A stretch of DNA of 64,000 nucleotides, taken from the NCBI GenBank assembly GCA_904420045.1, contig CAJFTY010000060.1, positions 1-64,000 of the forward strand. The letters are read 5' to 3'. Both the position numbers and the translations under genes were made by a program. The notes under the pieces were generated by a model. That model searched no databases. It saw only the letters and a list, made by a program, of their open reading frames with translations, and was not told the DNA's origin. Positions 11,681-26,146 of the stretch are shown here, one piece after another; position 1 is the stretch's first letter, and each line of letters opens with the position of its first letter. The DNA is from Candidatus Metaruminococcus caecorum. Its GTDB lineage: Bacteria > Bacillota > Clostridia > Oscillospirales > Ruminococcaceae.

Positions 11681-11686
11681 CGCATA

Positions 11687-11724
11687 AAAGCCCGGCCCGC
11701 TCTGTACAGAGCGGGCCGGGCTTT
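11687..11724. terminator. Bidirectional terminator between oxidoreductase and phage-like cassette
   Basis: A very long perfect stem (AAAGCCCGGCCCGCTCTGT with its complement) is followed by CTTTCTTTTC on the plus strand and preceded by A-rich DNA. It ends the plus-strand oxidoreductase and probably the minus-strand phage-like operon. Confidence 0.88.
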
Positions 11725-11778: not shown

Positions 11779-12744
11779 TTAAAAAAAGTACTGCAAACAG
11801 GCTTTAATGTTGGTGTATGTCCCGTCCTCCCCGGCGTGGAGGTGCACGTAATAGGCCCTGAATTCCAGGTCTTCGCTCCCCTGCGCCTCGGGAAATTTCA
11901 CCACGCTCCCGATTTCCATATCCCGAATTCCCGGAAGCACTGCCTCCAGGGTTTGGGAATGGATATTGGAGCGGCTGAGGGTTTCTTTTCCGTATTGAGA
12001 CAGGTTTTGGTACCACCGTTCGCTGGGGAACAGATACCGTTCCCGGCGCACATTTTCCAGCAGCGCGACGCCGTTGTCCGTGGAGTAACTGAAATCCTCA
12101 TCCTCGGTTTCATAGCTGTTTTTTAAATACACCCGGGACAGCATTTCCCCCCGGTTGCGGTGAAACGTCAGGGAGGAATACCGCAGCCCGTCCGAACGCA
12201 AGTTGGATACCCAGAACACATCCTGAACCTCCGACGCGGTGTCCTTTAAATATCCGTCCCGGGTCACACAAAGGGGCCGCCGGTAGCTTTGACGGCAGTA
12301 CAAGTCCACAACGTCCCAGCAGGACATGCCTTTTTCCACCACCAAATAGTTCTGCTCCTTGTCGGAACTAAACCGGATGCCGCGGACGCCGTAGGGCTCG
12401 GCAAACTGCTGGAACACCGTTTGTGGCGTGAGCTTAAAATAGACGCCGGGCTTGGGCTGGTTGTCCGCCATTCCGGCGCTTAAACCCCGGCACCGCAGCA
12501 GCCGGCGCATTCCCTGATTCGTCTGAAGAAATGACTGCACGTCCACCTTACCCTCAAAGATGATCCTTCCGTCCAGGTGGATAAACACCTCCTGATACAC
12601 CCGGCCGGGCTTGGCAAACGCCGCCTCCAGCTCCAGGGAATCGCAGGGCTCGTACCGATCAAAGATCAGATCCAGCCGGGTGACCGGGGCAATCTCCTCC
12701 CACATGGATTCGCCGGTTCTTTTTCCATATACGCGTATGGTCAT
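11779..12744 (-). CDS. Phage hub/baseplate-like protein (XkdQ/gpD-like)
   Basis: 321 residues; last gene of the minus-strand phage-like cassette. The sequence has the look of tail hub proteins (PBSX XkdQ, Mu gp44/P2 gpD class): an N-terminal beta-rich region with YEPCDSLELEAAF, a middle region (SSDKEQNYLVVEKGMSCWDV) and a DTASEVQDVFW strand pattern. It lies where xkdQ lies in PBSX, after the small protein at 12757. No spike, wedge, fibre or lysis genes follow; a terminator does. The family call is by resemblance and position, so moderate. Confidence 0.6.
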   Translation of the reverse strand: MTIRVYGKRTGESMWEEIAPVTRLDLIFDRYEPCDSLELEAAFAKPGRVYQEVFIHLDGRIIFEGKVDVQSFLQTNQGMRRLLRCRGLSAGMADNQPKPGVYFKLTPQTVFQQFAEPYGVRGIRFSSDKEQNYLVVEKGMSCWDVVDLYCRQSYRRPLCVTRDGYLKDTASEVQDVFWVSNLRSDGLRYSSLTFHRNRGEMLSRVYLKNSYETEDEDFSYSTDNGVALLENVRRERYLFPSERWYQNLSQYGKETLSRSNIHSQTLEAVLPGIRDMEIGSVVKFPEAQGSEDLEFRAYYVHLHAGEDGTYTNIKACLQYFF

Positions 12745-12756
12745 GGCGTCCTCCCG

Positions 12757-13107
12757 TCAGCTTTCCAAATCTTCCACAAACTCAAAGGCAAAGGTCAGCG
12801 TGTCCGGATCCGGTTGTCCGGTGACCGCCAGACGGGTGCACCACGCCGGGAACCCGGCAAGTCCCGCCACCGTAAGCTGCGCTTTGTCCGCGGTGAGAAA
12901 ATCCGCCTTGAGCGCTTCGTACTGCCCGGACAGATCGTCCCCATACAGCATCCCGGTGCCGGTCACCACCCGGGGGCCAAGGCCCATATCCTCAAACAGT
13001 TCCCCACCGTTTGGGAGCGGCGTGCGGATGTGGGCCCGCCTGTGCTCAATGGTAAACGAGGCGGGGTTGACCGGAAAGCTTTTCCCCCCGTATGCAAACA
13101 CGCTCAT
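12757..13107 (-). CDS. Small tail/baseplate-like protein
   Basis: 116 residues. It overlaps the upstream gene by ATGA and precedes the hub gene by 12 bases. Position corresponds to PBSX xkdP or P2 gpU-like proteins, which link tube and hub. No LysM domain is visible, although XkdP has one. Contains FTIEHRRAHIRTPLPNGGEL and a Glu-rich end (FEFVEDLES). Function is inferred from order only. Confidence 0.5.
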   Translation of the reverse strand: MSVFAYGGKSFPVNPASFTIEHRRAHIRTPLPNGGELFEDMGLGPRVVTGTGMLYGDDLSGQYEALKADFLTADKAQLTVAGLAGFPAWCTRLAVTGQPDPDTLTFAFEFVEDLES

Positions 13108-13391
13108 ACCCCGCCCCCATTCTCCGCCATGCGGGTTGCCGCCCGCAAAAGATCGGAAAACGGCAGCCGCCTGAGCGCGTCGTATCCCGATTCAAAGGCC
13201 CTTACCCCGTTTTGATATAGGCATATGGAGCACCAGGTTCCCACCTGGCTGAGCGTCTGGGCCAGCGGGGAGTCCCCCGCGTCCTTGGGGCGGATATTCT
13301 GTTCCAAGAGGGCCGCCTGAAGGCAGAACTCCTTTTTGGAAAATCCCGCGCGCACCTCATAGGCCCCGCTGGATAATACGAGCTGTTTCAT
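13104..13391 (-). CDS. Small tail-assembly-chaperone-like protein
   Basis: 95 residues, mostly helical, with SGYDALRRLPFSDLLRAATR near the end. It sits between the tube-like gene and the tail gene, where phages encode the tape-measure chaperone (XkdN/gpG class). Start ATG overlaps the previous stop (ATGA), and its own stop overlaps the next start. No slippery sequence or second chaperone frame was seen. No tape-measure gene follows, which makes this role puzzling. Confidence 0.45.
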   Translation of the reverse strand: MKQLVLSSGAYEVRAGFSKKEFCLQAALLEQNIRPKDAGDSPLAQTLSQVGTWCSICLYQNGVRAFESGYDALRRLPFSDLLRAATRMAENGGGV

Positions 13392-13786
13392 TTCGATTCG
13401 CTTTCCTCCGTTCTGTCCCCGGCGGTCAGTTCCATGACGTTGTACCAGACGCCGTCGGGCTCGACGGTCTGCTTGAGCTCGGTCCACCGGCACCCGGAAT
13501 AAACAACGCCGCGCCCATCTTGCCGGACCGTCAGGGAAAAGTCCCACAGTTCGAACAAGTCCGGCTGCACAAACGGACCGGCCGGCCGGTACTGGAAAAG
13601 GCTCAGCCGGTACCGGGGCTTTCCCAGCAGCGTCTGCCGCCCTTTCCCGGCCTGGGGGGCGAACTGCTCCGCCTCCCGTTGTTCTCGCCGGGCCTGTACG
13701 GTGAGCTTTTGCACAAATCCAGCCGGCTTGCCGCCGATCAAAATTTCAATTTCGTTTCCGGCGCTTGCCGGCAGAAGTTCTTTCAT
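13388..13786 (-). CDS. Tail-tube-like phage protein (XkdM-like)
   Basis: 132 residues from ATG 13786 with GGAGGAG upstream. Pattern EIEILIGGKPAGFVQKLTVQ at the start and YSGCRWTELKQTVEPDG at the end resembles contractile-tail tube proteins (XkdM, T4 gp19 fold): a beta-barrel opening, long middle loop and closing strands. No sheath gene (xkdK) precedes it; the neck-like gene does. It overlaps the downstream gene by ATGA. Confidence 0.55.
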   Translation of the reverse strand: MKELLPASAGNEIEILIGGKPAGFVQKLTVQARREQREAEQFAPQAGKGRQTLLGKPRYRLSLFQYRPAGPFVQPDLFELWDFSLTVRQDGRGVVYSGCRWTELKQTVEPDGVWYNVMELTAGDRTEESESK

Positions 13787-14238
13787 GATTCTCCTCCGGT
13801 TCCCTGGTTTTTCAGCACCGCTTTCAGCACGGCGGCGGCCGTAAGCTTGACGCCTCCGGTGTCCGGATCGTCGGACAGCTCGCTGCACTCCACAGACGAA
13901 AAAGCAAACCCGCTGTCAAACGCCAGAAAGGATAGGAGCTCCCCCGCCAGCTCCTGCAGCCTGCCGCCGCCCTGATCCGGCCCGGCGTACAGGGTATACG
14001 CCACCGTAATGGTCAGCGCCCGGCCGGACAGGGTCGCGCCGTCCCCGCCGCACCCCAGCAAATCCCCAGGATCACAGGACGACATCGCCGCTTTTTGGAC
14101 CCCGATCTGGATTTCCGGCGCGTCCAGCGGGAGAATTTCCCTCGCCGGAAATTCAGCCCCCACCCGGCATCCTGCAAAGGCGGGGGCGTTTTTCAGTTCC
14201 TCCGCCAGAGCGGCGGTTAACTGTTCAAACGTTGTCAT
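13783..14238 (-). CDS. Tail completion/neck-like phage protein
   Basis: 151 residues. Begins FEQLTAALAEELKNAPAFAG and has an alternating beta pattern (EIQIGVQKAA, ALTITVAYTLY, GVKLTAAAVL) typical of tail-terminator/neck proteins that cap the tube or join it to the connector. Lies between the head-closure-like and tube-like genes, the expected place (XkdJ or gp neck slot). The start overlaps the upstream gene's end. Call by position and general fold impression. Confidence 0.5.
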   Translation of the reverse strand: MTTFEQLTAALAEELKNAPAFAGCRVGAEFPAREILPLDAPEIQIGVQKAAMSSCDPGDLLGCGGDGATLSGRALTITVAYTLYAGPDQGGGRLQELAGELLSFLAFDSGFAFSSVECSELSDDPDTGGVKLTAAAVLKAVLKNQGTGGES

Positions 14239-14560
14239 CGGTTCCCTCCGTCCTCTTCATCAGCGCCCGCACATACAAACGCTTCCCCGCCAGGCGCATT
14301 TCTTCGCAGCGCAGAACCCGGTAAATCTTTTTGCCCCGGCAGATTATGTCCCCCGGCGCGGGGCCGGGTTCCCCCAGGTACTGAAACCGCCCCCGCCGGG
14401 TGATCCCCCTGGCCCCCGCGGCGCGCTCCGGCGCGTCCGCGTTGTCCTTGACGGTGGTGAGGATTCCGTGCACCGTCCAGGAGTTTTGTTCCCCCCGCTT
14501 GCAGCAGAGGGTTTCCCCATACCGGCGCAAAAACTGCTCCAGCGCGCGGATTATCCACAT
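14225..14560 (-). CDS. Head-closure-like phage connector protein
   Basis: 111 residues with a small beta-barrel look: RRGRFQYLGEPGPAPGD then RGKKIYRVLRCEEMRLAGKR. This pattern (a field-dependent DIICRGKKIY strand) resembles SPP1 gp16/HK97 gp7 head-closure or stopper proteins. It overlaps the upstream adaptor's stop and the downstream neck-like start. Position XkdI-like. Confidence 0.5.
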   Translation of the reverse strand: MWIIRALEQFLRRYGETLCCKRGEQNSWTVHGILTTVKDNADAPERAAGARGITRRGRFQYLGEPGPAPGDIICRGKKIYRVLRCEEMRLAGKRLYVRALMKRTEGTDDNV

Positions 14561-14934
14561 AGGGTCACCGCCTGACGGAAGAGAAATCCCGAATCGGTCA
14601 GATAAGGGGCTAAAGCCAGTAGGGATTCCTCTTTGAGCGCCTTTGCCCGCTCAAGGCGGGAGCTTCCGTCCTCGGGGGTGGCCGTCACCTCTCCTGCCTT
14701 TACAGCGGGCTCGGGGGCCGTCGTTGTCAGATAGCGGCAGGCCGCCATGGCCGCGCAGGCCCAGGTCAGGATTTCCCCCGGCTGTGCGCCGGGCCTAAGC
14801 CTCGCTTCCAGCTGCCGGATGCAGGCGTCGATCAGCGGAAGCTGAATGGCCGCCTGCTCCGGGCAAAGCCCGGTCATCTGCCCAAACAGGGCCGTCACGC
14901 TGTTTCTCTCCAACGCGTTTTCCTCCCTTGTCAT
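14551..14934 (-). CDS. Head-tail adaptor-like phage protein
   Basis: 127 residues from ATG 14934, entirely helical with LPLIDACIRQLEARL, a GEILTWACAAMAACRY helix and RLERAKALKEESLLALAPYL. Adaptors (gp6/gp15 class, XkdH slot) dock on the portal. The ribosome site is weak, so a later start is possible; the 159-residue track ORF starts inside the capsid gene and is unlikely. Function by position. Confidence 0.5.
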   Translation of the reverse strand: MTREENALERNSVTALFGQMTGLCPEQAAIQLPLIDACIRQLEARLRPGAQPGEILTWACAAMAACRYLTTTAPEPAVKAGEVTATPEDGSSRLERAKALKEESLLALAPYLTDSGFLFRQAVTLCG

Positions 14935-14986
14935 GATCGGCGGAGAAGGGCTTTGCGCCCTTTCTCCGCATATTTCTGAATCCGTG

Positions 14987-15997
14987 TTACACCTTGAGCA
15001 CCTTGGCCGCGTCCCCGAAGATCTTCGCAAAGCCTGTGATGGAGGTAATCGCGCTGCGCTCCATCTGCCGGTCGATCAGCTTGTCGTGCTCGATCATCAC
15101 ATCCCCGGCGGACACCATCTCCAGCGCGCACCGGCGGTCTAAGCCGATGATCTTGCCGGCGGGCACGCAGCTGGAACGGATCAGCGTGGCCCCCACCGGG
15201 GTCACCAGCTTGCCGGTGCCGTGGAAGGTAAGCCCTGCCGCCGCGTCCTTAAACTCGTCCAAATTGAGCAGCTTGCCCATCACGTCGGGGGCGGCGATCA
15301 TGGTGTTGAGCTCGTACCGGTCGAAGGAATTCCACAGCTTGACAATGTCCCCGTAGGTCACTGTGCCGGGGGTTTCCACCGAAATTTCATCGGCCGGGCC
15401 AAGGTTTCCGTCGCCGTTTACTAAAACGTTCACCGCATCCTTCATCTGGGAACGGGCAATGTACGCGCCGATCTGCTTGAGAGTGACGGTAAACAGATCC
15501 AGCCGCTGGAACCGGATGGCCTCGTAGGACGCCACCAGCATTCTGCCCCGTTTGACCAGCTTTACAAAATTTTCCTGCAGGGTGATTTTGGTTGTGGGGA
15601 TCGCAGCGCCCTCCGCCACGGTTTTCAGCTCCTTGTCCTCCTCGGAGGGGGTGGAGCAGATGCTGCGGTAATCCAGGCCGTTGATCATCGTTCTGGTGGC
15701 GACGATCTCGTTTAGACAATTCGCTTCCTCCATGCCTTGGCGAACCGCCCGGGCCACATACTCCGGGAACAGCGCAGCGGAATCCGCAGTGGTGAAAAAT
15801 TTTTCCACCACGTCTGACGCCGCGCCGGACACCTTGATGTCAAACCGCTTGAGCTGCCGCTGAAACGCGTCCAGATCCGCCAGTTCGGTGTTTTTGTACG
15901 CCGCGCTGGGGTCCAGCGCCTCCAGCGCCTGGGTAAAAGTTTTTCCCGCCAAATTGTAGAGGCTCTTGTCAATCTTGATTGATTCGTACTGTGCCAT
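14987..15997 (-). CDS. Phage major capsid protein (HK97-like fold)
   Basis: 336 residues from ATG 15997 (AAAGGA 8 bases upstream, better than the upstream ATG at zero spacing). Features of HK97-type capsids: a helical N-arm (1-100), EYVARAVRQGMEE, RGRMLVASYEAIRFQRLDLF spine region, and A-domain PDVMGKLLNLDEFKDAAAG. The C-terminal P/A part ends in GFAKIFGDAAKVLKV. A separate decoration-like gene precedes it. It lies in the expected slot after protease (PBSX XkdG). The ORF is intact and full length, which argues that it is maintained. Confidence 0.8.
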   Translation of the reverse strand: MAQYESIKIDKSLYNLAGKTFTQALEALDPSAAYKNTELADLDAFQRQLKRFDIKVSGAASDVVEKFFTTADSAALFPEYVARAVRQGMEEANCLNEIVATRTMINGLDYRSICSTPSEEDKELKTVAEGAAIPTTKITLQENFVKLVKRGRMLVASYEAIRFQRLDLFTVTLKQIGAYIARSQMKDAVNVLVNGDGNLGPADEISVETPGTVTYGDIVKLWNSFDRYELNTMIAAPDVMGKLLNLDEFKDAAAGLTFHGTGKLVTPVGATLIRSSCVPAGKIIGLDRRCALEMVSAGDVMIEHDKLIDRQMERSAITSITGFAKIFGDAAKVLKV

Positions 15998-16056
15998 AGG
16001 TCGCATCCTTTCTTCTTTCTTTTTCTTCCCCGATCCATCCGGGAGCTTTCTGCTTT

Positions 16057-16416
16057 TTACAGCAGGATGGTGACGGCCTTGGTTTGGGTGTCCACCGCCA
16101 TGGTCAGCCGCTTGATCCCGTCGGCGCTGACCTGCACGGCCTTGTCGCTGCCGGCGGTAAAGCCGTTGTAGCCCACCGTGGGCGCAGAATCCCCGGTGTA
16201 GGGCAGGGTGATCGCCCCCCGGATCTGCACGCCTGCGTAACCGCCGTTGCGGCTGACGCACACCCCGGCAAAGTGTTCCTTCGCCGCGGATTTTTTGACC
16301 TCGCCGCTGGCGGACAGGGTCACCACGTCTCCCACCGCGGGAAGGGTGTCCTCCTCCCCTGCTTTGCAGGCAAACGTGGCCACCGTGCGGCCGATTCCTT
16401 CAAAACCTACGTTCAT
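16057..16416 (-). CDS. Capsid decoration-like small protein (DUF2190-like)
   Basis: 119 residues from ATG 16416 with GGGAGGAAG 6 bases upstream. Beta-rich, Gly-rich: EEDTLPAVGDVVTLSASGEV, then HFAGVCVSRNGGYAGVQIRG and VGYNGFTAGSDKAVQVS. This resembles DUF2190/head-decoration proteins that bind the capsid surface and commonly sit just before the capsid gene. Spacing to capsid 59 bases. Confidence 0.6.
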   Translation of the reverse strand: MNVGFEGIGRTVATFACKAGEEDTLPAVGDVVTLSASGEVKKSAAKEHFAGVCVSRNGGYAGVQIRGAITLPYTGDSAPTVGYNGFTAGSDKAVQVSADGIKRLTMAVDTQTKAVTILL

Positions 16417-16436
16417 GTTTTCTTCCTCCCATGTTG

Positions 16437-17420
16437 TTAAATTTGAAACGGGGCGTTGCGGGCCTCGTTTTCGTTTTGTTCCTCCGGCAGCAACTGACAG
16501 GTTTCCCTGCCGTCGAGCTTTTTGGAAAACGCCTTGCACATCTGGTCCAGCTCCTCTGCGTCCATCCCCTGTACCGCGCTTTGCAGCACGCCGGCTGGGA
16601 TTCCGCAGTCCGCCAGATATCCCAACCGCACCGCGTCCTGTCTTAGGCGGCCAAGATACGCTTCTCCCGCCCGGGCGTTTTTCTCAAGCTCCCGGATCAG
16701 CGCGGAAAGCTCTCCCGCCTCCGGGCCGGTCAGATAGGCGGCGCCTTTTTCCACCGCCGCCAAAACCTCCTCCCGGCTGCGGGGAGGAAGAACGCCTTCC
16801 CGCTCCCGGTAGGATTTGACCACCCCCGCGCCCACCTGGGCGGGAACGGCCACAAACGACCACTCGTAGGCGTCGGTAGGCTCGTCCAGTTCCACGCAGC
16901 ATTTCACCTCGCCGTAGGTCTCCCCCGGGCGGTGGCCGCAGGGGTCGTGACGGGGATCCTTGCCGCACACCGAGCAGGCGGATTTGGCCACTGCACAGCC
17001 CACGCTGACCTCCTTTTTGATGCCGCCGTCGATCTCCAAAATCAAATCGGCGTTGGCCTTGGTGCGCACCATATACGCCCGGGCCTTTAAGCGGCGGTAG
17101 GGCTCCCCTGCACAGGTCGTCCGCTCCGGGTCCTCCTCCACGGCCGTCTCAAAGATGCGGGCAGTCTGGTTGTGCCCCTTGGGGTTGTGGTCAAAAATCC
17201 CCGTCTTGCCCACAAACAGCCCGCTGAGGGTATGAAGCGCCCTGGTGGTAAAACGCTCCCCGTCCCGGTCGATCTCATTGTCACACAGCACCACCGGGAA
17301 CACGTACACCTCCTGTGCCGTCAGCTTCCGGCGGGTAAACTTGTTGATGGTTTCCATGTCCTGTTCCGTGGGAATTCCTTCCCCTGGAACCCCCTTTTTC
17401 TGGATGGTTGATTCCAGCAT
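16437..17420 (-). CDS. Phage prohead protease (XkdF-like)
   Basis: 327 residues from ATG 17420 (GGAGAG upstream). The N-terminal ~190 residues look like an XkdF-type serine protease: FPVVLCDNEIDRDGERFTT, FDHNPKGHNQTARIF and SVGCAVAKSACSVCGKDPRH, with an unusual Cys/His cluster (CSVCGKDPRHDPCGH) that could bind zinc. The C-terminal part (about 230-310) is helical and charged, like a scaffold segment. Such proteins trim the capsid during maturation. Sits between portal and decoration protein. Confidence 0.65.
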   Translation of the reverse strand: MLESTIQKKGVPGEGIPTEQDMETINKFTRRKLTAQEVYVFPVVLCDNEIDRDGERFTTRALHTLSGLFVGKTGIFDHNPKGHNQTARIFETAVEEDPERTTCAGEPYRRLKARAYMVRTKANADLILEIDGGIKKEVSVGCAVAKSACSVCGKDPRHDPCGHRPGETYGEVKCCVELDEPTDAYEWSFVAVPAQVGAGVVKSYREREGVLPPRSREEVLAAVEKGAAYLTGPEAGELSALIRELEKNARAGEAYLGRLRQDAVRLGYLADCGIPAGVLQSAVQGMDAEELDQMCKAFSKKLDGRETCQLLPEEQNENEARNAPFQI

Positions 17421-17437
17421 GTCTCTCTCCTTCCCCG

Positions 17438-18583
17438 TCAGCCGTTCTGGCGCTCCAGCTGTTCGGCCTGGGCGTTGTACAGTCTGGCCTTGGCGCTTTC
17501 CACCTCGTCCTGGAGGTTGATGGTATTCCATTTGACCACCGGCTCGCAGGGGCAGCCCCGCAGCCGCAGAAACGTCCGGCAGACCCGCATCAGCACCGGG
17601 GTGAGCAGCCTGCGGTAGTATTCCAGCTCACTGGTCAAAATGTCCGCCTGCTGCTTGCTCATCCGCTCGGTGGTGGACCAGTTGAGCCCCAGCAGGAACG
17701 GCGGAATCGACAGCTTGGCGATGATCTGCTCCAGCATCTGGCGCACCGGAACCTGGGTGTCCAAAATCTGGTTGTCCGCCCCGATCACCTTGATGTCCAC
17801 ATCCCCCACCGACACAAAATCCCGCACCTGGCCCCGGCCGCCCGCGCTCATGCCCTGGGACCATTCCCGGGCGATCTGCTGAGCCCGCTCCTTGGCGTAG
17901 GCCCGATCCATATCGCTTCCCGGCTTGTAGGTCACCGCGAACCGGACGTTGCCCACCCGGTCGAAGTTTTTGCCGGTGGCGTCAAAAATCTTGAGCAAAA
18001 TAGAGGTGACAAACGGCAGGCTTTTGAGCACCGACTCCCCCTTGATCCCGGAGGGAGGGGGACTCAGCGCCGTGAACATCACAAGCTGGGGCATTTTCAC
18101 CGGCTGAAGCTCGGCTCCCCGGCGCACGCACACCTGGGCGTCAAAGGGCGTCTTTCCCGCCCGGACCTGAAGCCCGGACAGGGAGGCGTTGTAAAGTCCC
18201 GCCACTGCCCGGCGGTCTTTGGACAGCACGATCTCTCCCACGGCGTTTCCGTAGGTGAGCAGGCTGTCCAGGTATTCCCCCAGAAAGGTTTCCAGCCCCC
18301 GGCCGCCCGCGCCCACCTTCACCTCCCGGCAAAAGCGTTCCAGCTCCCGCTGGCTGGCGGGGTCGCCGCACTCCACCCGAAAGCCGCCAGCCAGCCGGAC
18401 GATCTTGGTCAAAGCGGCGTCTACTAATGGCACCGCCTCCCGAATGGCCTCATAGAGCTTCGCATCCCCGCCCGACAGGGGCGTGTACCCGCTGACCGGC
18501 CAGAAGGGATGGGAAGCCTCCCGCCCCGTCTGCACCGCCGCGGCCGCCGGCTCCGGTTTTTGTTTTGTTTTCAGAAGTCCCAA
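17438..18583 (-). CDS. Phage portal protein
   Basis: 381 residues, PBSX/SPP1-like portal class. EAVPLVDAALTKIVRLAGGF near residue 50, LLTYGNAVGEIVL near 115, SIPPFLLGLNWSTTERMSKQ and LEYYRRLLTPVLMRVCRTFL near 300 are typical of portal stem and wing segments. It forms the dodecameric DNA gate on the capsid vertex. It overlaps the terminase gene's end by 13 bases, and the protease gene begins 17 bases after it. Confidence 0.85.
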   Translation of the reverse strand: MGLLKTKQKPEPAAAAVQTGREASHPFWPVSGYTPLSGGDAKLYEAIREAVPLVDAALTKIVRLAGGFRVECGDPASQRELERFCREVKVGAGGRGLETFLGEYLDSLLTYGNAVGEIVLSKDRRAVAGLYNASLSGLQVRAGKTPFDAQVCVRRGAELQPVKMPQLVMFTALSPPPSGIKGESVLKSLPFVTSILLKIFDATGKNFDRVGNVRFAVTYKPGSDMDRAYAKERAQQIAREWSQGMSAGGRGQVRDFVSVGDVDIKVIGADNQILDTQVPVRQMLEQIIAKLSIPPFLLGLNWSTTERMSKQQADILTSELEYYRRLLTPVLMRVCRTFLRLRGCPCEPVVKWNTINLQDEVESAKARLYNAQAEQLERQNG

Positions 18584-19854
18584 TGGGTTCCCTCCTTTTG
18601 GCTTCTTGACGCGGAAAGGACAAAAAATCCGTCGTCCTCAGGGGCGGCCAGCACCGTGCTAACAAAATACCGAATGTCGTCCATGGCGTGGTCGTTCTGT
18701 TTTTTGGGCGTGTCCCCCGCCGCCCGCTCATCCCAGCAGTACAGGGAAAATTCCCGCAATGTGTCCTTGCAGGAGGGGGAGAACAAAAGCCTCCCCTCTT
18801 TCAGTGCGTCCGACACCCGTCGGATGCCGGACACCACGTCGTTTTTCGCCGGGATCACCCGAAACCGCCCGTGGCGGCGGATGCACTCGATGAAGCTGGC
18901 GGCGGAGGGGTCGACGATCACCGCCGTCACCGGAAGTCCGCCCGCCAGCTCCTCCAGAGCCCGGTAGTGCTCCTCGTCGGTGCGGCTTTCCCCCTTTTCC
19001 CGGGCGTCGTAGTAGTACTCCCGCAGGCGGTGCCAGCTCCCGCCGCACCGGCCCCAAAGCCCCGCCGAGGTGGGGTTTAACGTCCCATAATCGCAGGACA
19101 GGTAGTACTGCTCGCACCGCTCGGGCGGGTGGGCCACGTGTCTCGCTTCGCTAAACATGGGATAAATCCGCCCCGAGGCCGCCACCCATTTTCCCAGCAC
19201 GAACCGGTCGTAAAACGCCCCTTCGTACAGGGATTCATACCGCTTTCGGATCGCCGGGGAAAGCGAAGGGTTGTCCTCCATGGTAAAGTGCAGGTACAGG
19301 GCGTTTTTCTCCCGGGCCTTTTGGATCCACTCCCGGTAAAACCAGTGGCGGGGGTGCTCGGGGTTGCAGTTAAACCAAAATTTCGAGCCCGCCACGCTGC
19401 ACCGGGCCAGGGCCTGTTCCACAAAGCTGCGGGGCATCAGCGCCACCTCGTCAAACAGCACCCCCGCCAGAGTCGCCCCCTGGATCAGCGCGGCGGAGGA
19501 CTCGTCCTTTCCCCCAAACAGGTACAGGGTGTTGCAGTGCTTTCCCCGCCGGATCTGAAGCAGGTTTTTGCTCACCTGCTCCCGGCAGGTAAACCCCAGC
19601 TCCTCAAGCCTTGCGGTCAGCGGGCGCACCACGTTGCGCCGCAAAGAGGTCACCGTCTTGCCGCACAAAGCGAAGGACTCCCCTTTAAACCGGGAGAACG
19701 CCCACAGCACAAAGGACAGGGACATGCACAGGGTCTTTCCGCTTCGCACCGCGCCGTCGCAGATGATCGCATCCCGATCCCGGTCGGGGCTGCCCGGCGT
19801 CCACCAGGTCATCACCCGCCGCTGCTTGTGGGAAAACGCCGCGATCTCAGTCAT
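18571..19854 (-). CDS. Phage terminase large subunit (PBSX family)
   Basis: 427 residues from ATG 19854, whose codon overlaps the end of the small subunit gene. Walker A GAVRSGKTLCMSLSF at about residue 37, Walker B GVLFDEVALM, motif FWFNCNPEHPRHWFY, and nuclease-domain acids in SCDYGTLNPTSAGLWG and VIVDPSAASF. It is the ATP motor and headful/packaging nuclease. All motifs are intact. Matches the TerL class of PBSX-like elements. Confidence 0.9.
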   Translation of the reverse strand: MTEIAAFSHKQRRVMTWWTPGSPDRDRDAIICDGAVRSGKTLCMSLSFVLWAFSRFKGESFALCGKTVTSLRRNVVRPLTARLEELGFTCREQVSKNLLQIRRGKHCNTLYLFGGKDESSAALIQGATLAGVLFDEVALMPRSFVEQALARCSVAGSKFWFNCNPEHPRHWFYREWIQKAREKNALYLHFTMEDNPSLSPAIRKRYESLYEGAFYDRFVLGKWVAASGRIYPMFSEARHVAHPPERCEQYYLSCDYGTLNPTSAGLWGRCGGSWHRLREYYYDAREKGESRTDEEHYRALEELAGGLPVTAVIVDPSAASFIECIRRHGRFRVIPAKNDVVSGIRRVSDALKEGRLLFSPSCKDTLREFSLYCWDERAAGDTPKKQNDHAMDDIRYFVSTVLAAPEDDGFFVLSASRSQKEGTHWDF

Positions 19855-20341
19855 GGGCATCCTCCCCGCGGGCGGATGGGCCGGCATTTTCCAGGGCCTT
19901 ATACAGCGCGGCGAGGCCGTCGTTCCCCTGGGCGCCGTCCTCCAGCTCCAGCAGTTTTTCCAGCGCCTTCATCCGGTCGAAGAACTTCATCTCCATGCCG
20001 CCGTCTTTGGTCTTTTTGACCTCCGACAGCATGAACAGATCCAGCGCCTGCACCTGCGCCTCCTCCAGGTCGGGGTAAAACAGCAAAAGGCGTAGGCAGT
20101 CCCCCACCGGGGAAAACGCCAGCCGCCTAAGCCCCGCCAGGGCCGCCCTCTCCTCCGGATGACCGCCCAGCCGGCGAAGCTTCGCCAGATGCCGGCGCAC
20201 CCGGGGCGTTCCCAACAGCCGCAGGCCCTCGGCCTCCGCCTCCTCCGGGGAAAAGCCCGCCCGCAGGGCGGCCTCCCGGGGATTTTGGATTTGCAGATAG
20301 CACCGGCAGAACAAATCCTGCCGGTCGGTGAGTTTTTCCAA
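19847..20341 (-). CDS. Phage terminase small subunit
   Basis: 164 residues. LTDRQDLFCRCYLQIQNPRE then AALRAGFSPEEAEAEGLRLL is the helix-turn-helix of the TerS family, which recognises DNA for packaging. The C-terminal half carries a helical oligomerisation region and EVKKTKDGGMEMKFFDRMKA. Start is TTG at 20341, with AGGAGG about 12 bases upstream. It is the first gene of the 12-gene cassette; no sigmaA promoter is evident in front of it, and the strong alaS promoter faces the other way 120 bases upstream. Confidence 0.8.
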   Translation of the reverse strand: MEKLTDRQDLFCRCYLQIQNPREAALRAGFSPEEAEAEGLRLLGTPRVRRHLAKLRRLGGHPEERAALAGLRRLAFSPVGDCLRLLLFYPDLEEAQVQALDLFMLSEVKKTKDGGMEMKFFDRMKALEKLLELEDGAQGNDGLAALYKALENAGPSARGEDAHD

Positions 20342-20462
20342 AGCGTTTCATCTCCTCCTTTGTCCTTTCCACCCATCCCCCGTTTGCCGGGAAAAGTTGC
20401 ATGGGCCGGTACAACAGCCGTAAAAAAATCTTTTTTGCACCTGTGAACAAAGGGAAAACTTG

Positions 20463-20491
20463 TTGACAAACCGTGAATGCAACCGTATAAT
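20463..20491 (+). promoter_or_regulatory. Consensus promoter of the T-box-alaS transcript
   Basis: Perfect TTGACA and TATAAT with 17-base spacing. Transcription is expected near 20498. Confidence 0.93.
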
Positions 20492-20497
20492 AAAAAT

Positions 20498-20795
20498 ATA
20501 TATAAAAAGCTGTGAAGAGAAAAACCAGCCTGGACAATCCGGCTTTCGCCGTCTTGTTCCGCGCAGCCCGCAAGAGAGGAAAGCCGTTTTGCTGCAAGGC
20601 TTTCGCTGTGCGTCCGGCCGGGGGCCGTCTTGGAGCTTCGGGGGGAACTTTTTTAACCTCCGGCGTTTCCCGCGTTAAGGGAATTGAGGGGCCGGCGTTT
20701 CACAACGTGAAAAGCGCTTGGCAATTTGGGTGGTACCACGGAATCAAAAGTCTTCGTCCCATATCGGCGAGGGCTTTTACTATTTTTTGCCGGAT
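20498..20795 (+). promoter_or_regulatory. T-box leader controlling alaS
   Basis: A ~290-base structured leader. The conserved T-box core, TTTGGGTGGTACCACG, lies at 20725-20740 and pairs with the tRNA acceptor end. It is followed by a terminator: AAAAGTCTTCGTC (20746) pairs with GGCGAGGGCTTTT (20766) using G-U pairs, then TATTTTTT. The expected reader is uncharged tRNA-Ala. I could not place the specifier codon with certainty within stem I. Confidence 0.93.
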
Positions 20796-20824
20796 TTCCC
20801 GGCAGTCTTTTAGGAGAGATGAAG

Positions 20825-23479
20825 ATGGAATGGACAGGGTTAAACGAATTGCGGGAGCAGTTTCTGTCGTTTTTTGAAAGCAAGGGCCACACCCGGCTCC
20901 CCAGCTATCCGCTGGTGCCGCAAAACGACAACAGCCTGCTGCTCATCAACTCCGGCATGGCGCCGATGAAAAAATTCTTTTTGGGGCAGGAAACCCCGCC
21001 CAACAAACGGGTGACCACCTGCCAGAAGTGCATCCGCACCCCGGATATCGAGCAGGTGGGCAAAACCTCCCGCCACGGCACCTTCTTTGAAATGCTTGGA
21101 AACTTCTCCTTTGGGGATTATTTCAAAGTAGAGGCCACCGCCTGGGCGTGGGAATTTATCACCCAGGTGCTGAAAATGCCCACCGACAAGCTTTGGATCT
21201 CCATCTACGAGGACGATGACGAGGCGTTTGACATCTGGACTCAGAAGGTGGGCATCCCACCCGAACGCATTGTCCGCCTGGGCAAAGAGGATAACTTCTG
21301 GGAGCACGGCTCCGGCCCCTGCGGCCCCTGCTCGGAGATTTACTTCGACCGGGGCGAGGAACACGGCTGCGGCAGCCCCGACTGCAAGGTGGGCTGCGAC
21401 TGCGACCGGTTTATGGAGTTCTGGAACCTGGTGTTCTCCCAGTTTGACAGCGACGGCAACGGCCACTACGAGCGGATGGACCACCCCAACATCGACACCG
21501 GCATGGGGCTGGAGCGTCTGGCCTGCATTTTGCAGGGGGTGGACAACCTGTTCGAGGTGGACACCGTCCAGAACATCATGAAGCACATCTCCAAAATCGC
21601 GGGCGTCACCTATAAAGAGGATCCGAAAACCGACGTGTCCCTGCGGGTGGTCACCGACCACATCCGCTCCACCGTGTTTATGGTGGGCGACGGAGTGCTG
21701 CCCTCCAACGAGGGCCGGGGCTACGTGCTGCGCCGGCTTTTGCGCCGGGCCGCCCGCCACGGCCGCCTGCTGGGAATCGGAAAGCCCTTCCTGTACCAGG
21801 TGGTGGACACCGTTGTGCAGGAAAACGAAAAGGCGTACCCCGAGCTCCGGGAAAAACAGGACTACATCAAAAAGGTCATCCGGGTGGAGGAAGAAAGCTT
21901 CGCGAAAACCATCGACAAGGGCATGGAGCTGTTAAACCAGCTCATCGACAAGATCGACCGTCCCGACTTTGACGGCGGCCGGGTGCTGTCCGGCGAGCAG
22001 GCTTTCAAGCTGTACGACACCTTCGGCTTTCCCATCGACCTGACCCGGGAGATCATCGGCGAGCGCTCCATCCAGGTGGACGAGGATGAGTTCATGCGCC
22101 TGATGGAACAGCAGCGCACCCGGGCCCGCCAGGCCCGCTTAAAGGGCGAGCAGTCCTCCTGGTCGGACGATTCCATCGCCTTTTTGCCCGACACCCCCAC
22201 TGAGTTTGTGGGCTACGATCAACTGGAGTGCGAAACCAAAATCCTCGCCCTGATTGTGGACGGGGAGGAACGCCAAACGGTAAACGAGGGTGAGACCGCC
22301 ACCATTGTGCTGGAAAAGACCCCCTTCTACGCGGAAAGCGGCGGACAGGTGGCAGACAACGGCGTGATCGTATCCGGCTCCCACCGCATTCAGGTGATGG
22401 ACTGCCAGAAAACCGCTTCCAAACACTACCTGCACACCGGCACAGTGACTGCGGGGAGCTTTGCGGTGGGGCAAGCTGTCACCGCCCGGGCGGACGAGAT
22501 GATCCGCCAGGCCGTCATGCGCAGCCACAGCTGCGCCCACCTGCTCCAAGCGGCCCTGCGCAGCGTGCTGGGCGACCATGTGCACCAGGCGGGCCAGCTG
22601 GTGGAGGCCGACCGCTTCCGGTTCGACTTTTCCCACTTTAACCCCATGACGAACGAAGAACTCGCCGAGGTGGAACTCCAGGTCAACCGGGCCATCCTGT
22701 CCGCCCTGCCGGTCCGCGTGTTCGAAACCGACATCGACTCCGCCCGGAAGATGGGCGCCATGGCCCTGTTCGGGGAAAAATATGGCGATATCGTCCGCGT
22801 GGTGGATATGGACGGCTACTCCATCGAGTTGTGCGGCGGCACCCATCTGACCAATACCGCCCAGGTGGGATTGTTTAAAATTACCAGCGAGTCCTCGGCG
22901 GCGGCGGGCGTGCGCCGGATCGAGGCTGTCACCGGCATGCGGGTGCTGACCCTGATCAAGGACGCCAACCAGACGATCCGTCACGCGGCGGAGGCCCTGA
23001 AGGTCTCGAACGCCCAAGAACTGGTGGGCCGCTGCGGCTCCCTGATGGCGGAGCTCAAGGAAAAGGACAAGGAAATTGACCGGCTGACCCAGAAGATCGC
23101 GGACACCCAACTGGAAAACATGTTTGAAAACGCCCAGGCGGTGAACGATGTTCCGGTCATCAGCGCGGTGTTAAACGGCGCCAAAACCGACGGCCTGCGG
23201 GCCATCGGCGACAAGATCCGGGAGCGGGAGCCCAAAATGATTGCGGTGCTGGCCAGCATCCGGGACGGCAAGGGAACCCTGCTGGCGGTCTGCGGCAAGG
23301 AAGCCATTGCCAAGGGCGCCCACGCGGGCAACATCGTGCGGGAGATCGCGGCTTTGGCCGGCGGCAAGGGCGGCGGACGTCCTGAAAGCGCCATGGCCGG
23401 CGTGCCCGAAATTTTCAAGATCGACGAGGCGCTGGCCCAGCTCCCCTCGGTGGTACAAAAAATGGTGGGGGACAACTAA
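20825..23479 (+). CDS. alaS: Alanyl-tRNA synthetase
   Basis: 884 residues, normal length. Start ATG 20825 lies 8 bases after AGGAG; the in-frame ATG six bases earlier is too close. Class II catalytic core from LFFESKGHTRLPSYP to about 440; editing domain with RSHSCAHLLQAALR (HxxxH zinc) and CGGTHLTNTAQVGLF; C-terminal DHHA1 domain with GKGGGRPESAMAG. It charges tRNA-Ala and clears mischarged Ser/Gly. It is regulated by the T-box upstream and is followed by the HIT gene 37 bases later in the same direction. Confidence 0.97.
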   Translation: MEWTGLNELREQFLSFFESKGHTRLPSYPLVPQNDNSLLLINSGMAPMKKFFLGQETPPNKRVTTCQKCIRTPDIEQVGKTSRHGTFFEMLGNFSFGDYFKVEATAWAWEFITQVLKMPTDKLWISIYEDDDEAFDIWTQKVGIPPERIVRLGKEDNFWEHGSGPCGPCSEIYFDRGEEHGCGSPDCKVGCDCDRFMEFWNLVFSQFDSDGNGHYERMDHPNIDTGMGLERLACILQGVDNLFEVDTVQNIMKHISKIAGVTYKEDPKTDVSLRVVTDHIRSTVFMVGDGVLPSNEGRGYVLRRLLRRAARHGRLLGIGKPFLYQVVDTVVQENEKAYPELREKQDYIKKVIRVEEESFAKTIDKGMELLNQLIDKIDRPDFDGGRVLSGEQAFKLYDTFGFPIDLTREIIGERSIQVDEDEFMRLMEQQRTRARQARLKGEQSSWSDDSIAFLPDTPTEFVGYDQLECETKILALIVDGEERQTVNEGETATIVLEKTPFYAESGGQVADNGVIVSGSHRIQVMDCQKTASKHYLHTGTVTAGSFAVGQAVTARADEMIRQAVMRSHSCAHLLQAALRSVLGDHVHQAGQLVEADRFRFDFSHFNPMTNEELAEVELQVNRAILSALPVRVFETDIDSARKMGAMALFGEKYGDIVRVVDMDGYSIELCGGTHLTNTAQVGLFKITSESSAAAGVRRIEAVTGMRVLTLIKDANQTIRHAAEALKVSNAQELVGRCGSLMAELKEKDKEIDRLTQKIADTQLENMFENAQAVNDVPVISAVLNGAKTDGLRAIGDKIREREPKMIAVLASIRDGKGTLLAVCGKEAIAKGAHAGNIVREIAALAGGKGGGRPESAMAGVPEIFKIDEALAQLPSVVQKMVGDN

Positions 23480-23855: not shown

Positions 23856-23938
23856 TTGGAGAGCCTTGGCAATTCGACACAATCAACCAGCGGTTGTTCC
23901 CAGACAAAGACAATGGGATCGGGGATGGACAAAGCGCC

Positions 23939-26146
23939 ATGCGGATGTTTGGCATCGTGGGTTTCACCTATGTGACAGGGCTCATCGCCGCGTCGTTTCT
24001 CGGCTTGTATCCAAGCCTTGTAATGGCGGGGGCTTTCCTGTTTGCGCTTATTTTGATCCTGCTTTTTGTCAAAGGGCAACATCGCGTCCATTATGCCGCA
24101 GCCGCGCTCGCCGCAGCCGCGCTCGCCGCAGTTGCGGCATTCGGCGTTTTCTCCCTGAACGACGTTCAGACCAGGCGGCAGGAGGTCTTAAACGGCCTAA
24201 CCTGTACGGTGGAGGGTGTCATCGTCTCCAAGGCCGAAACCCAGACCGGAAAATACCGGTACCAAGTTAAAACCACCCGCATCGACTGTTCCGGGCGGGA
24301 GGATCTGCCCCAGTCGGTTGTCCTGTCGGTGACGCCTCCGGCGGACCAGACCTATGAGCTCCACCAGACAGTGCGGTTTACCGACACCCTGCAAACCCAG
24401 TTCTCCACTCTGAACCCCTTCGGCCGGCCGGTTTTGTCCATCCGGGGAATCAAGGGCGGCCTGCTCACCGTCACCGGGTTCCAGGATTCCCTGGGCGCTA
24501 AGATGGACGCGCTCAAAGCCCGCATGCAGGCCGCTGCTTCCCCCTATCTGGACGAGAACACCGCCCGGATTCTGGAGGGCGTGACCTTTGGCGGCACCGA
24601 CGGCTTTCCCCGGGAGCTGACTTTGACCTTCCGCCAGGGCGGGATCCTCCATGTGTTCTCAGTCTCGGGCTTTCATCTGGCGGTGCTGGCCCAGGCGGTG
24701 ATGAGTTTGCTCAGCGCCCTTCGGATCAACAAAAAGGCCGCTTCCCTTGTCACTGTGGGATTTACAGTGTTTTTCATGATGCTGGTGGGCTTTCGCTACG
24801 CGGTGATCCGGGCGGGGGTGATGACCATCCTGCGGTACCTGGCTCCCTTGTTCGGCCGGGAGGCGGATTCCCTCAACTCCTTAGGGTTCGCGGCGCTGCT
24901 CGTCGCGCTGATCGATCCGGCTTCGGTGTACGATACGGGGTTTCTGTTGTCCTTTTCCGCCACCCTGGGCATCCTTTTGTGTGCAAGCCGGATCAAAAGC
25001 TTCCTCACCCTGCGTCTGCGGCTCAAACGCCGATTCTGGATCGGATGCGCCTCCCTATTGGCGGTGAGCGTAAGCGCCACGCTGTTCACCCTACCAGTGA
25101 TGATTCTCACCTTCGACGAGCTGTCCCTGGTGGGGCTTTTGGCAAACGTCCTGCTCACTCCCCTGTTTTTCGTGCTTTTGTGCGGCGGTTTTCTGTTTTA
25201 CTTAATCTGTATGATCCCCTTTTTGTCATTTCTCTGTCCGTTTTTTGGGAGCGTGCTGACCGTCTGTGTCAATCTGGTTGTAAAAAGCCTGTCGCTGCTC
25301 GTCAAACTCCCCTACTCCACCCTGCCGTTGGGGTACGATTTTATCCCTTTGTGGCTGGCATGCACCGGTGTGATCCTCGGGGCAGGCGTTCTGCTTACCC
25401 GCCGGAAGGTGCGGGTCACCGCCCTTTGCATCACGGCTTCCCTCCTCCTGTTGTTTTCGGGTGTGATTTCTTCACTGGCGTGTAACCATAATGTTATTGA
25501 AGTCGACGTGATAACCAGTTATAATGGTACATGTGTTTTGGTGCGGGACCGTTCCACCGCGTCGGTGGTGATTGTAAAGGGGGACCGGTACCTGTTTTCC
25601 TCCTTAAGCCGGGAGCTTTTCGGCAAAGGTGTCAAACGCCTGACCACCCTAGCGGTGTTGGAGGATTCCGCCTCCGCGTCCGGCTGCGGAGCGGACATCG
25701 TCTCCTCCTTTCCCACGGGCCAGGCGGTGTTCCCGGAGGAATCGGTGAGCATGATGTCCCTTGCCGCCGCATGCCGGCGGACTGGTACGCTTACAGCCTC
25801 CACCCGGCGGATGGACCTGACGGTCAGCCCCCGGATCACCCTGTCCATCGACCCCGATCCTCAAACAGGGGAAGCCGGCGCGGTTGTGCAAACGCCCTTT
25901 ACCCGCCTGGGAATCGGGGCGGATTATGACGCTTTGACCCGTCTGGAAGCCGCCTGTCAACTAGACGCCGGGATCACCTGCGGCGGCGGGGAACTGGATT
26001 TACATGCTTTGTCCGCGCCGGTGCTCATAAACGCCCTGCCGGAGCAGCTTCACCTATACACCGACAAACAATACTGCGCCCCCGGCCAGCAGAGCATCGT
26101 CCGCCTGCTGATCCGGGACGCTTCACTCACTCTGAAACCCCAATGA
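23939..26146 (+). CDS. comEC: ComEC/Rec2-family DNA-uptake channel with degenerate C-terminal domain
   Basis: 735 residues from ATG 23939 (GGGGATG upstream; the track's TTG start adds 15). Two N-terminal helices, an OB-like periplasmic segment (about 80-190), then the polytopic Competence domain, with GVTFGGTDGFPRELTLTFRQ and ILHVFSVSGFHLAVLAQAV. Many ComEC proteins end in a ~260-residue metallo-beta-lactamase nuclease domain with HxHxDH. Here the ~220-residue tail (CNHNVIEVDVITSYNGTCVL onward) keeps the general outline but no HxHxDH is visible, so it is probably catalytically dead. It would transport one DNA strand across the membrane. Confidence 0.86.
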   Translation: MRMFGIVGFTYVTGLIAASFLGLYPSLVMAGAFLFALILILLFVKGQHRVHYAAAALAAAALAAVAAFGVFSLNDVQTRRQEVLNGLTCTVEGVIVSKAETQTGKYRYQVKTTRIDCSGREDLPQSVVLSVTPPADQTYELHQTVRFTDTLQTQFSTLNPFGRPVLSIRGIKGGLLTVTGFQDSLGAKMDALKARMQAAASPYLDENTARILEGVTFGGTDGFPRELTLTFRQGGILHVFSVSGFHLAVLAQAVMSLLSALRINKKAASLVTVGFTVFFMMLVGFRYAVIRAGVMTILRYLAPLFGREADSLNSLGFAALLVALIDPASVYDTGFLLSFSATLGILLCASRIKSFLTLRLRLKRRFWIGCASLLAVSVSATLFTLPVMILTFDELSLVGLLANVLLTPLFFVLLCGGFLFYLICMIPFLSFLCPFFGSVLTVCVNLVVKSLSLLVKLPYSTLPLGYDFIPLWLACTGVILGAGVLLTRRKVRVTALCITASLLLLFSGVISSLACNHNVIEVDVITSYNGTCVLVRDRSTASVVIVKGDRYLFSSLSRELFGKGVKRLTTLAVLEDSASASGCGADIVSSFPTGQAVFPEESVSMMSLAAACRRTGTLTASTRRMDLTVSPRITLSIDPDPQTGEAGAVVQTPFTRLGIGADYDALTRLEAACQLDAGITCGGGELDLHALSAPVLINALPEQLHLYTDKQYCAPGQQSIVRLLIRDASLTLKPQ

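Follow-up and report, generated by a model that had tools for sequence, protein, structure and literature searches.

Gene content of the capsid cassette

The 64,000-nucleotide stretch of DNA from Candidatus Metaruminococcus caecorum analyzed here (contig CAJFTY010000060.1, positions 1 to 64,000; hereafter the window) contains a phage-derived capsid cassette between an oxidoreductase gene and alaS. Thirteen minus-strand open reading frames (ORFs) run from the small terminase subunit (TerS) to a baseplate hub at positions 11779 to 20341; most overlap or nearly abut, and none has an internal stop (Table 1). An earlier note on this DNA had described 12 intact minus-strand ORFs, mostly coupled by overlaps or near-zero gaps and followed by a terminator. 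Strand, intactness, coupling, and a symmetric hairpin behind the cassette were all found again, whereas the count rises to 13, the number named in the note's own list. Between the oxidoreductase gene and alaS, neither the ORFs nor library searches revealed a gene for a sheath or tape measure, for lysis, or for integration or replication, in agreement with the same note.

Genes were named by profile searches of Pfam and PHROGs and by comparison of AlphaFold2 structure models using Foldseek. The proposed gene order was upheld for TerS, the large terminase subunit (TerL), portal, capsid, decoration protein, tube fold, and hub; the three connectors, the chaperone, and the activity of the protease are assigned by position. 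The hub g13 is weak by sequence, while its AlphaFold model, with a predicted local distance difference test (pLDDT) value of 93.5, leads to the Mu gp44 hub family (3cdd, E = 8e-20, template modeling [TM] score 0.78; 1wru, 1e-18). The model of g10 (pLDDT, 85) matched tail tube and terminator proteins with Foldseek values of 4e-6 to 1e-3. In TerL, both Walker motifs (A and B) and the acidic residues of the nuclease are invariant across 34 aligned relatives, and homologs of the protein in the protease position are present in 123 of the 148 fetched stretches. The nearest solved capsid, sought for the triangulation number, gave only a weak match (9m66). Because the identical gene order recurs at more than 100 loci, an arrangement by chance is excluded. 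The cassette encodes a complete capsid and packaging motor with a tail that is reduced or absent.

Table 1. Genes and flanking features of the cassette in the window, with the basis of each name (values after profile names are E values)
Feature	Position	Strand	Basis
terS, terminase small subunit	19847-20341	-	PF03592 1.6e-14, model positions 1-127 of 141; full Terminase_2 including N-terminal half
terL, terminase large subunit	18571-19887 (start may be 19854)	-	PF03237 4e-18, phrog_2 1e-47
Portal protein	17438-18583	-	PF04860 2e-10, phrog_30703 1.5e-145
Head protein, protease position	16437-17426	-	phrog_16951 1e-103 (conserved virion family, no named function); protease activity suggested by position
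Decoration-type virion structural protein	16057-16416	-	phrog_4588 5e-16
Major capsid protein	14987-16006	-	PF25209 9.5e-16, phrog_3922 3e-104
g7, head-tail connector by position	14551-14934	-	No match in Pfam or PHROGs; conserved in 120 stretches
g8, connector/head closure by position	14225-14560	-	Position; homologs in 69 stretches
g9, neck/tail terminator by position	13783-14238	-	Position; homologs in 79 stretches; final gene of head-only cassettes
g10, tail-tube-fold protein	13388-13786	-	phrog_27038 4e-7; AlphaFold2 and Foldseek
g11, small ORF, chaperone position	13104-13391	-	Position only; homologs in 14 stretches
g12, small tail/hub-adaptor-like	12757-13107	-	Weak matches: phrog_184 0.001, DNA_circ_N 0.034
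g13, central baseplate hub, Mu gp44 type	11779-12744	-	AlphaFold2 and Foldseek
Perfect symmetric terminator-like hairpin	~11685-11724		Read from sequence; between cassette and convergent oxidoreductase gene
Divergent intergenic region terS/alaS	20342-20725	-	Presumed cassette promoter

Tail genes at related loci

Relatives of the cassette differ in how much of a tail they encode. In a set of 114 loci, a few duplicates included, sheath, tube, hub, and baseplate genes occur together at 22 (sheath: phrog_279, 3e-13, and PF17482; baseplate J: PF04865, 6e-41), and 11 have kept the baseplate with the sheath gone. Another 14 are window-like or without a recognized tube, 41 possess neck and hub, and the remaining 26 stop after g8 or g9, have no recognized tail gene, and are followed by housekeeping genes in those inspected. 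Anaerotruncus massiliensis AT3 is a cultured carrier of the contractile type. Room for a tape measure exists at no classified locus: the interval from tube to g12 reaches 1001 bp at most (median, 606), too short for such a gene to be hidden there. Relatives from IMG/VR give the same picture, again without this room.

In an unrooted FastTree phylogeny of 108 loci, some of whose deep supports are low, the neck-plus-hub type forms one side of a branch, and the presence of the sheath requires five changes and that of the hub six. We read this as repeated loss of the tail from a contractile ancestor, with the complexity of the tail operon, the tree being unrooted, giving the direction. Missing tail genes residing elsewhere in the chromosome, which the earlier note had named as evidence to look for against its interpretation, were sought in head-only relatives by means of the hub profile: none of the 19 head-only genomes had a match to it anywhere, a search limited to the hub that a diverged tail could escape.

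Some relatives thus retain sheath, tube, and baseplate J in the order of phage Mu and of PBSX, the xkd element of Bacillus subtilis, and in one contractile pair the tail genes are strongly constrained (g10 ratio of nonsynonymous to synonymous substitution rates [dN/dS], 0.015). Such loci are compatible with a PBSX-like killing particle, i.e., a tailocin with a DNA-filled head that is kept for killing competitors. As a reading of the cassette this is nevertheless improbable, given that the window and most relatives have neither sheath nor baseplate, that the 26 cassettes without a recognized tail gene are still under selection, and that even the contractile type has no space for a tape measure.

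Three further features of the relatives were observed. In many head-only cassettes (L072 to L074, L076, L082, L085, and others) g9 bears a C-terminal extension of approximately 130 residues. Most neck-plus-hub (type C) cassettes, e.g., L043, L045, and L063, have the order portal-capsid-protease, not portal-protease-capsid. At locus L165 (G240:C42), a TerL close to that of the cassette (E = 7e-146) stands in another neighborhood with no further cassette gene and perhaps belongs to a true prophage.

Distribution, inheritance, and selection

Within the sampled family, probably the Ruminococcaceae of GTDB, the portal query found single-copy matches in 127 of 299 genomes and 62 of 126 genera; no internal stop was present among the matches listed, and a few were split by contig ends. 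At the level of the order, the capsid query matched 43 of 295 genomes, which belong to six families and have one copy each. One genus carries the capsid in 92 of 100 genomes and in 53 of 55 good genomes; we take it to be Ruminococcus because one member and Ruminococcus flavefaciens RUG12238 have capsids with 100% identity over 317 residues. In a few of its genomes the capsid is fragmented; some of these fragments lie at contig ends, and two capsids (G630 and G680) are perhaps frameshifted. Widespread frameshifts in relatives, which the earlier note would have counted against itself, were not found in the family, order, and genus sets, whose frames are otherwise intact. A scan of named genomes yielded at least 582 TerL relatives, and the 80 listed all belong to Clostridia or unplaced Bacillota; named phages reach at most 28% capsid identity.

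Identities of TerL, portal, and capsid combined follow those of AlaS across 30 genomes (r = 0.735; as high in 0 of 5000 permutations). Cassette and AlaS trees have 15 of 27 splits in common, compared with an average of 0.2 and a maximum of 3 upon label shuffling in an earlier run, and mean identity is 0.54 for the combined cassette proteins, 0.567 for AlaS, and 0.59 for TerL alone. The base composition, previously stated to match that of the host, does not do so in the window itself (GC content of 0.617 for the cassette versus 0.561 for the window), whereas over 103 loci ranging from 0.26 to 0.70 cassette GC tracks that of the flanks (r = 0.954). Flanking genes are common to 27 of 41 close pairs (TerL identity of at least 0.80). 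The suggested synteny beside alaS holds within the genus, where the window and the congener G084 have it, but not family-wide, so that the alaS neighborhood was discarded as a mark of the family. Strain-specific presence with attachment (att) sites was not encountered, and no att-like flanking direct repeats spanning the element were found. The cassette is a long-resident, vertically inherited chromosomal locus.

The genomes of 0.7 to 0.9 Mb (G068, G088, and G162) present a special case. Here the portal gene stands alone among housekeeping genes, protease and capsid genes are at a second locus, those of TerS and TerL at a third, and the hub gene at another (in G068, near TerL); all pieces are open, and TerS has lost approximately 50 N-terminal residues. 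The lone portals had been considered isolated relics, an idea dropped once the other cassette genes were located at separate loci. Genes that are dispersed and yet open do not make up the arrangement of a mobile phage or satellite; for host genes it is possible.

This bears on whether the cassette is a capsid-forming satellite resembling the capsid-forming phage-inducible chromosomal islands (cf-PICI), or a remnant of one, making its own heads and borrowing tails from co-resident phages. Capsid-forming satellites are indeed built in this manner, with their own heads and no tails of their own, and the retention of head and packaging genes while tails shrink or vanish would fit. We regard this as clearly unlikely in view of the vertical inheritance, the common site in close relatives, and the lack of any integrase, primase/replicase, or regulator within the cassette and of direct repeats around it; moreover, a satellite could not be mobile with its genes scattered as they are in the reduced genomes.

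The comparison of dN/dS that had been proposed for the cassette gave low values in close pairs, mostly 0.05 to 0.15 cassette-wide with one at 0.20, tail-less types included, and among single genes the capsid is usually lowest. In a pair from the window's genus, diverged and with synonymous sites near saturation, values are 0.13 to 0.28 for head and packaging genes, 0.30 for g7, 0.40 to 0.58 for g8 to g10, and 0.26 for the hub. Tube proteins retain an identity of 0.51 in contractile types (TerL identity, 0.58 to 0.66) versus 0.24 in window-like types (7 pairs only). Together with the contrast in dN/dS, this indicates weaker constraint on what remains of the tail after loss of the sheath, with the frame still open. 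The cassette is under purifying selection. The faster g8 to g10 genes in the window's genus and the missing lysis, integration, and replication genes would also suit an ordinary prophage remnant in decay, which is hardly credible given that frames are intact in hundreds of genomes, that dN/dS is low, and that the cassette has a host-like phylogeny and is present genus-wide.

A different possibility is that the particle consists of a head only and functions without injection, the DNA being packed and shed for competence uptake, protected, or put to some other role. Repeated tail loss alongside constrained head and terminase genes speaks for it, as do the 19 head-only genomes devoid of a hub match and, by adjacency only, a ComEC-like DNA-uptake gene just beyond alaS in the window. 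On the other side, the particle could be completed by tail genes located elsewhere, either divergent or of foreign origin, given that the hub alone was sought genome-wide, and the window type still has a constrained hub. On balance we hold such a function to be rather unlikely.

Neighborhood of the cassette in the window

The ComEC-like gene (positions 23894 to 26146), named by eye, follows alaS and a HIT-family gene; in the congener (L032) its homolog adjoins alaS. AlaS itself (20801 to 23479) matches phrog_28604 with an E value of 3e-227, which suggests that alaS-bearing chromosome was swept into the viral collection. On the plus strand 5' of alaS, at approximately 20726 to 20760, lies a T-box-like GGTGGTACC motif, for which Rfam gave no match at the gathering score.

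Comparison with known systems

PBSX is a defective chromosomal element that packages host DNA. Its gene order of terminase, portal, capsid, connectors, (sheath), tube, small ORFs, hub, and (W, J) resembles that of the cassette, whereas the window is devoid of its sheath, tape measure, fibers, and lysis genes, none of which occurs downstream of the cassette before the flanking genes. The contractile (type A) relatives do have sheath and J and differ from PBSX in that no tape measure gene would fit; the cassette also has a far wider vertical spread. With the baseplate of phage Mu, the window shares the gp44 fold of its hub, and no other Mu function was recognized.

Gene transfer agent (GTA)-like packaging has been shown in gut Ruminococcaceae (PMC12946183): FpGTA of Faecalibacterium forms 40-nm capsids with approximately 9 kb of DNA and is encoded by operon I and by a second operon, located apart from it, that contains the genes for baseplate and lysis (PMC12946183, 2026). 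Few GTA-like systems outside Alphaproteobacteria have been described, and for Gram-positive bacteria only PBSX and FpGTA (PMC12946183) are named. FpGTA I/II of Faecalibacterium prausnitzii resemble the cassette in belonging to gut Ruminococcaceae and in having a chromosomal TerS-TerL-portal-capsid operon without replication genes. A candidate FpGTA operon was located in a genus (g83) assigned to Faecalibacterium through MAM-like proteins, for which the query gave approximately 53% identity in one genus only; the 16S probe Fprau645 matched three genera, none safely assignable. This operon encodes a 590-residue P22-type portal (PF16510, 1e-30), an internal virion protein (phrog_511), and a TerL of phrog_979 that is remote from that of the cassette (1e-4 to 1e-6). 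The cassette portal had no match in this genus, nor did the cassette capsid in the g83 genomes listed. FpGTA I was therefore rejected as the same element on account of its P22-type portal and the absence of detectable portal and capsid kinship, with the operon presumably being FpGTA I. For Ruminococcus callidus, 4.6-kb packaged host-DNA fragments have been described, with the gene cluster not named (PMC12946183). Since the putative Ruminococcus genus almost always carries the cassette, the latter is a candidate source of this packaging and a possible match.

RcGTA and CcGTA of Alphaproteobacteria are, like the cassette, ancient domesticated head and packaging clusters that are vertically inherited under purifying selection. 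By description they are set apart by the other host phylum, a complete tail, and a TerS without DNA-binding domain (PMC11841831). According to this review, the DNA-binding domain is absent from TerS of all known GTAs, and particles hold 4 to 14 kb; the TerS of the window, in contrast, aligns to Terminase_2 from position 1.

Relatives of the cassette also appear in virus collections. At least 360 proviral stretches in IMG/VR encode a portal relative, and five fecal scaffolds in GenBank, filed as 'Bacteriophage sp.' and unverified, have capsids with 56 to 63% identity. One scaffold of this designation (L179, MT835508.1) is bacterial chromosome, in which rplQ, rpoA, and rpsD adjoin a head-only cassette. 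An origin of the MT83xxxx scaffolds from virus-like particles is plausible, with the virome of Mexican children (PMC8361208) as the putative source.

Proposed nature of the cassette

The cassette is, in our judgment, probably a host-domesticated, vertically inherited DNA-packaging particle that is best termed GTA-like. The core of the earlier note, a domesticated particle with little or no tail that is kept by selection and is not a decaying prophage, gains support from presence, intact frames, phylogeny, dN/dS, GC content, scattered retention, and the lack of att repeats. What it has in common with GTAs is a phage-derived head and packaging cluster without replication or integration genes, together with vertical inheritance and purifying selection; as judged from the genes, the likeness appears to reach as far as packaging, and membership beyond that is not claimed.

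In operation, a host signal would cause few cells to make small capsids, which TerL would fill by the headful with whatever DNA is present, in the absence of a replicating viral genome that could be favored. The particles would exit by cell lysis, the genes for which must then lie elsewhere. That of the window would have a tail stub at most, in which neck, tube-fold protein, and Mu gp44-type hub are present but sheath and tape measure are missing, and it would carry host DNA, perhaps no more than a few kilobases. For the window's lineage, delivery by the tail stub is doubtful; for head-only lineages, unaided delivery is implausible.

Several points weigh against a GTA-like particle. For this element, neither a particle with packaged DNA nor lysis or transfer has been observed; lysis genes were not located, and the window has none in the space from the cassette to its flanking genes. 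The portal query had no match in over half of the 299 family genomes, so that many lineages can do without the cassette. Conflict with AlaS at two well-supported cassette splits makes some horizontal transfer possible. The window TerS keeps its N-terminal half, which approximately 20 of 124 relatives have lost (start at or beyond position 31 of the 143-position TerS model). Lastly, head-only relatives could not inject DNA unaided, a misfit with a classical GTA.

A more far-reaching proposal, which we put forward tentatively as possible though not probable, is that an ancient domesticated contractile-tailed phage lost its injection apparatus on several occasions across the order and was reduced to a capsid and packaging core of eight or nine genes. 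Selection would then maintain DNA encapsidation rather than injection, with packaged DNA perhaps being shed for uptake by other means.

No papers on this cassette were found in the open-licence literature searched. If the reading as a domesticated GTA-like particle is true, the cassette would be a third, unrelated GTA-like system of Gram-positive bacteria, after PBSX and FpGTA, and one that is near-universal in an abundant genus of gut and rumen and occurs across six families sampled from the order. Its graded tail loss constitutes a natural experiment.

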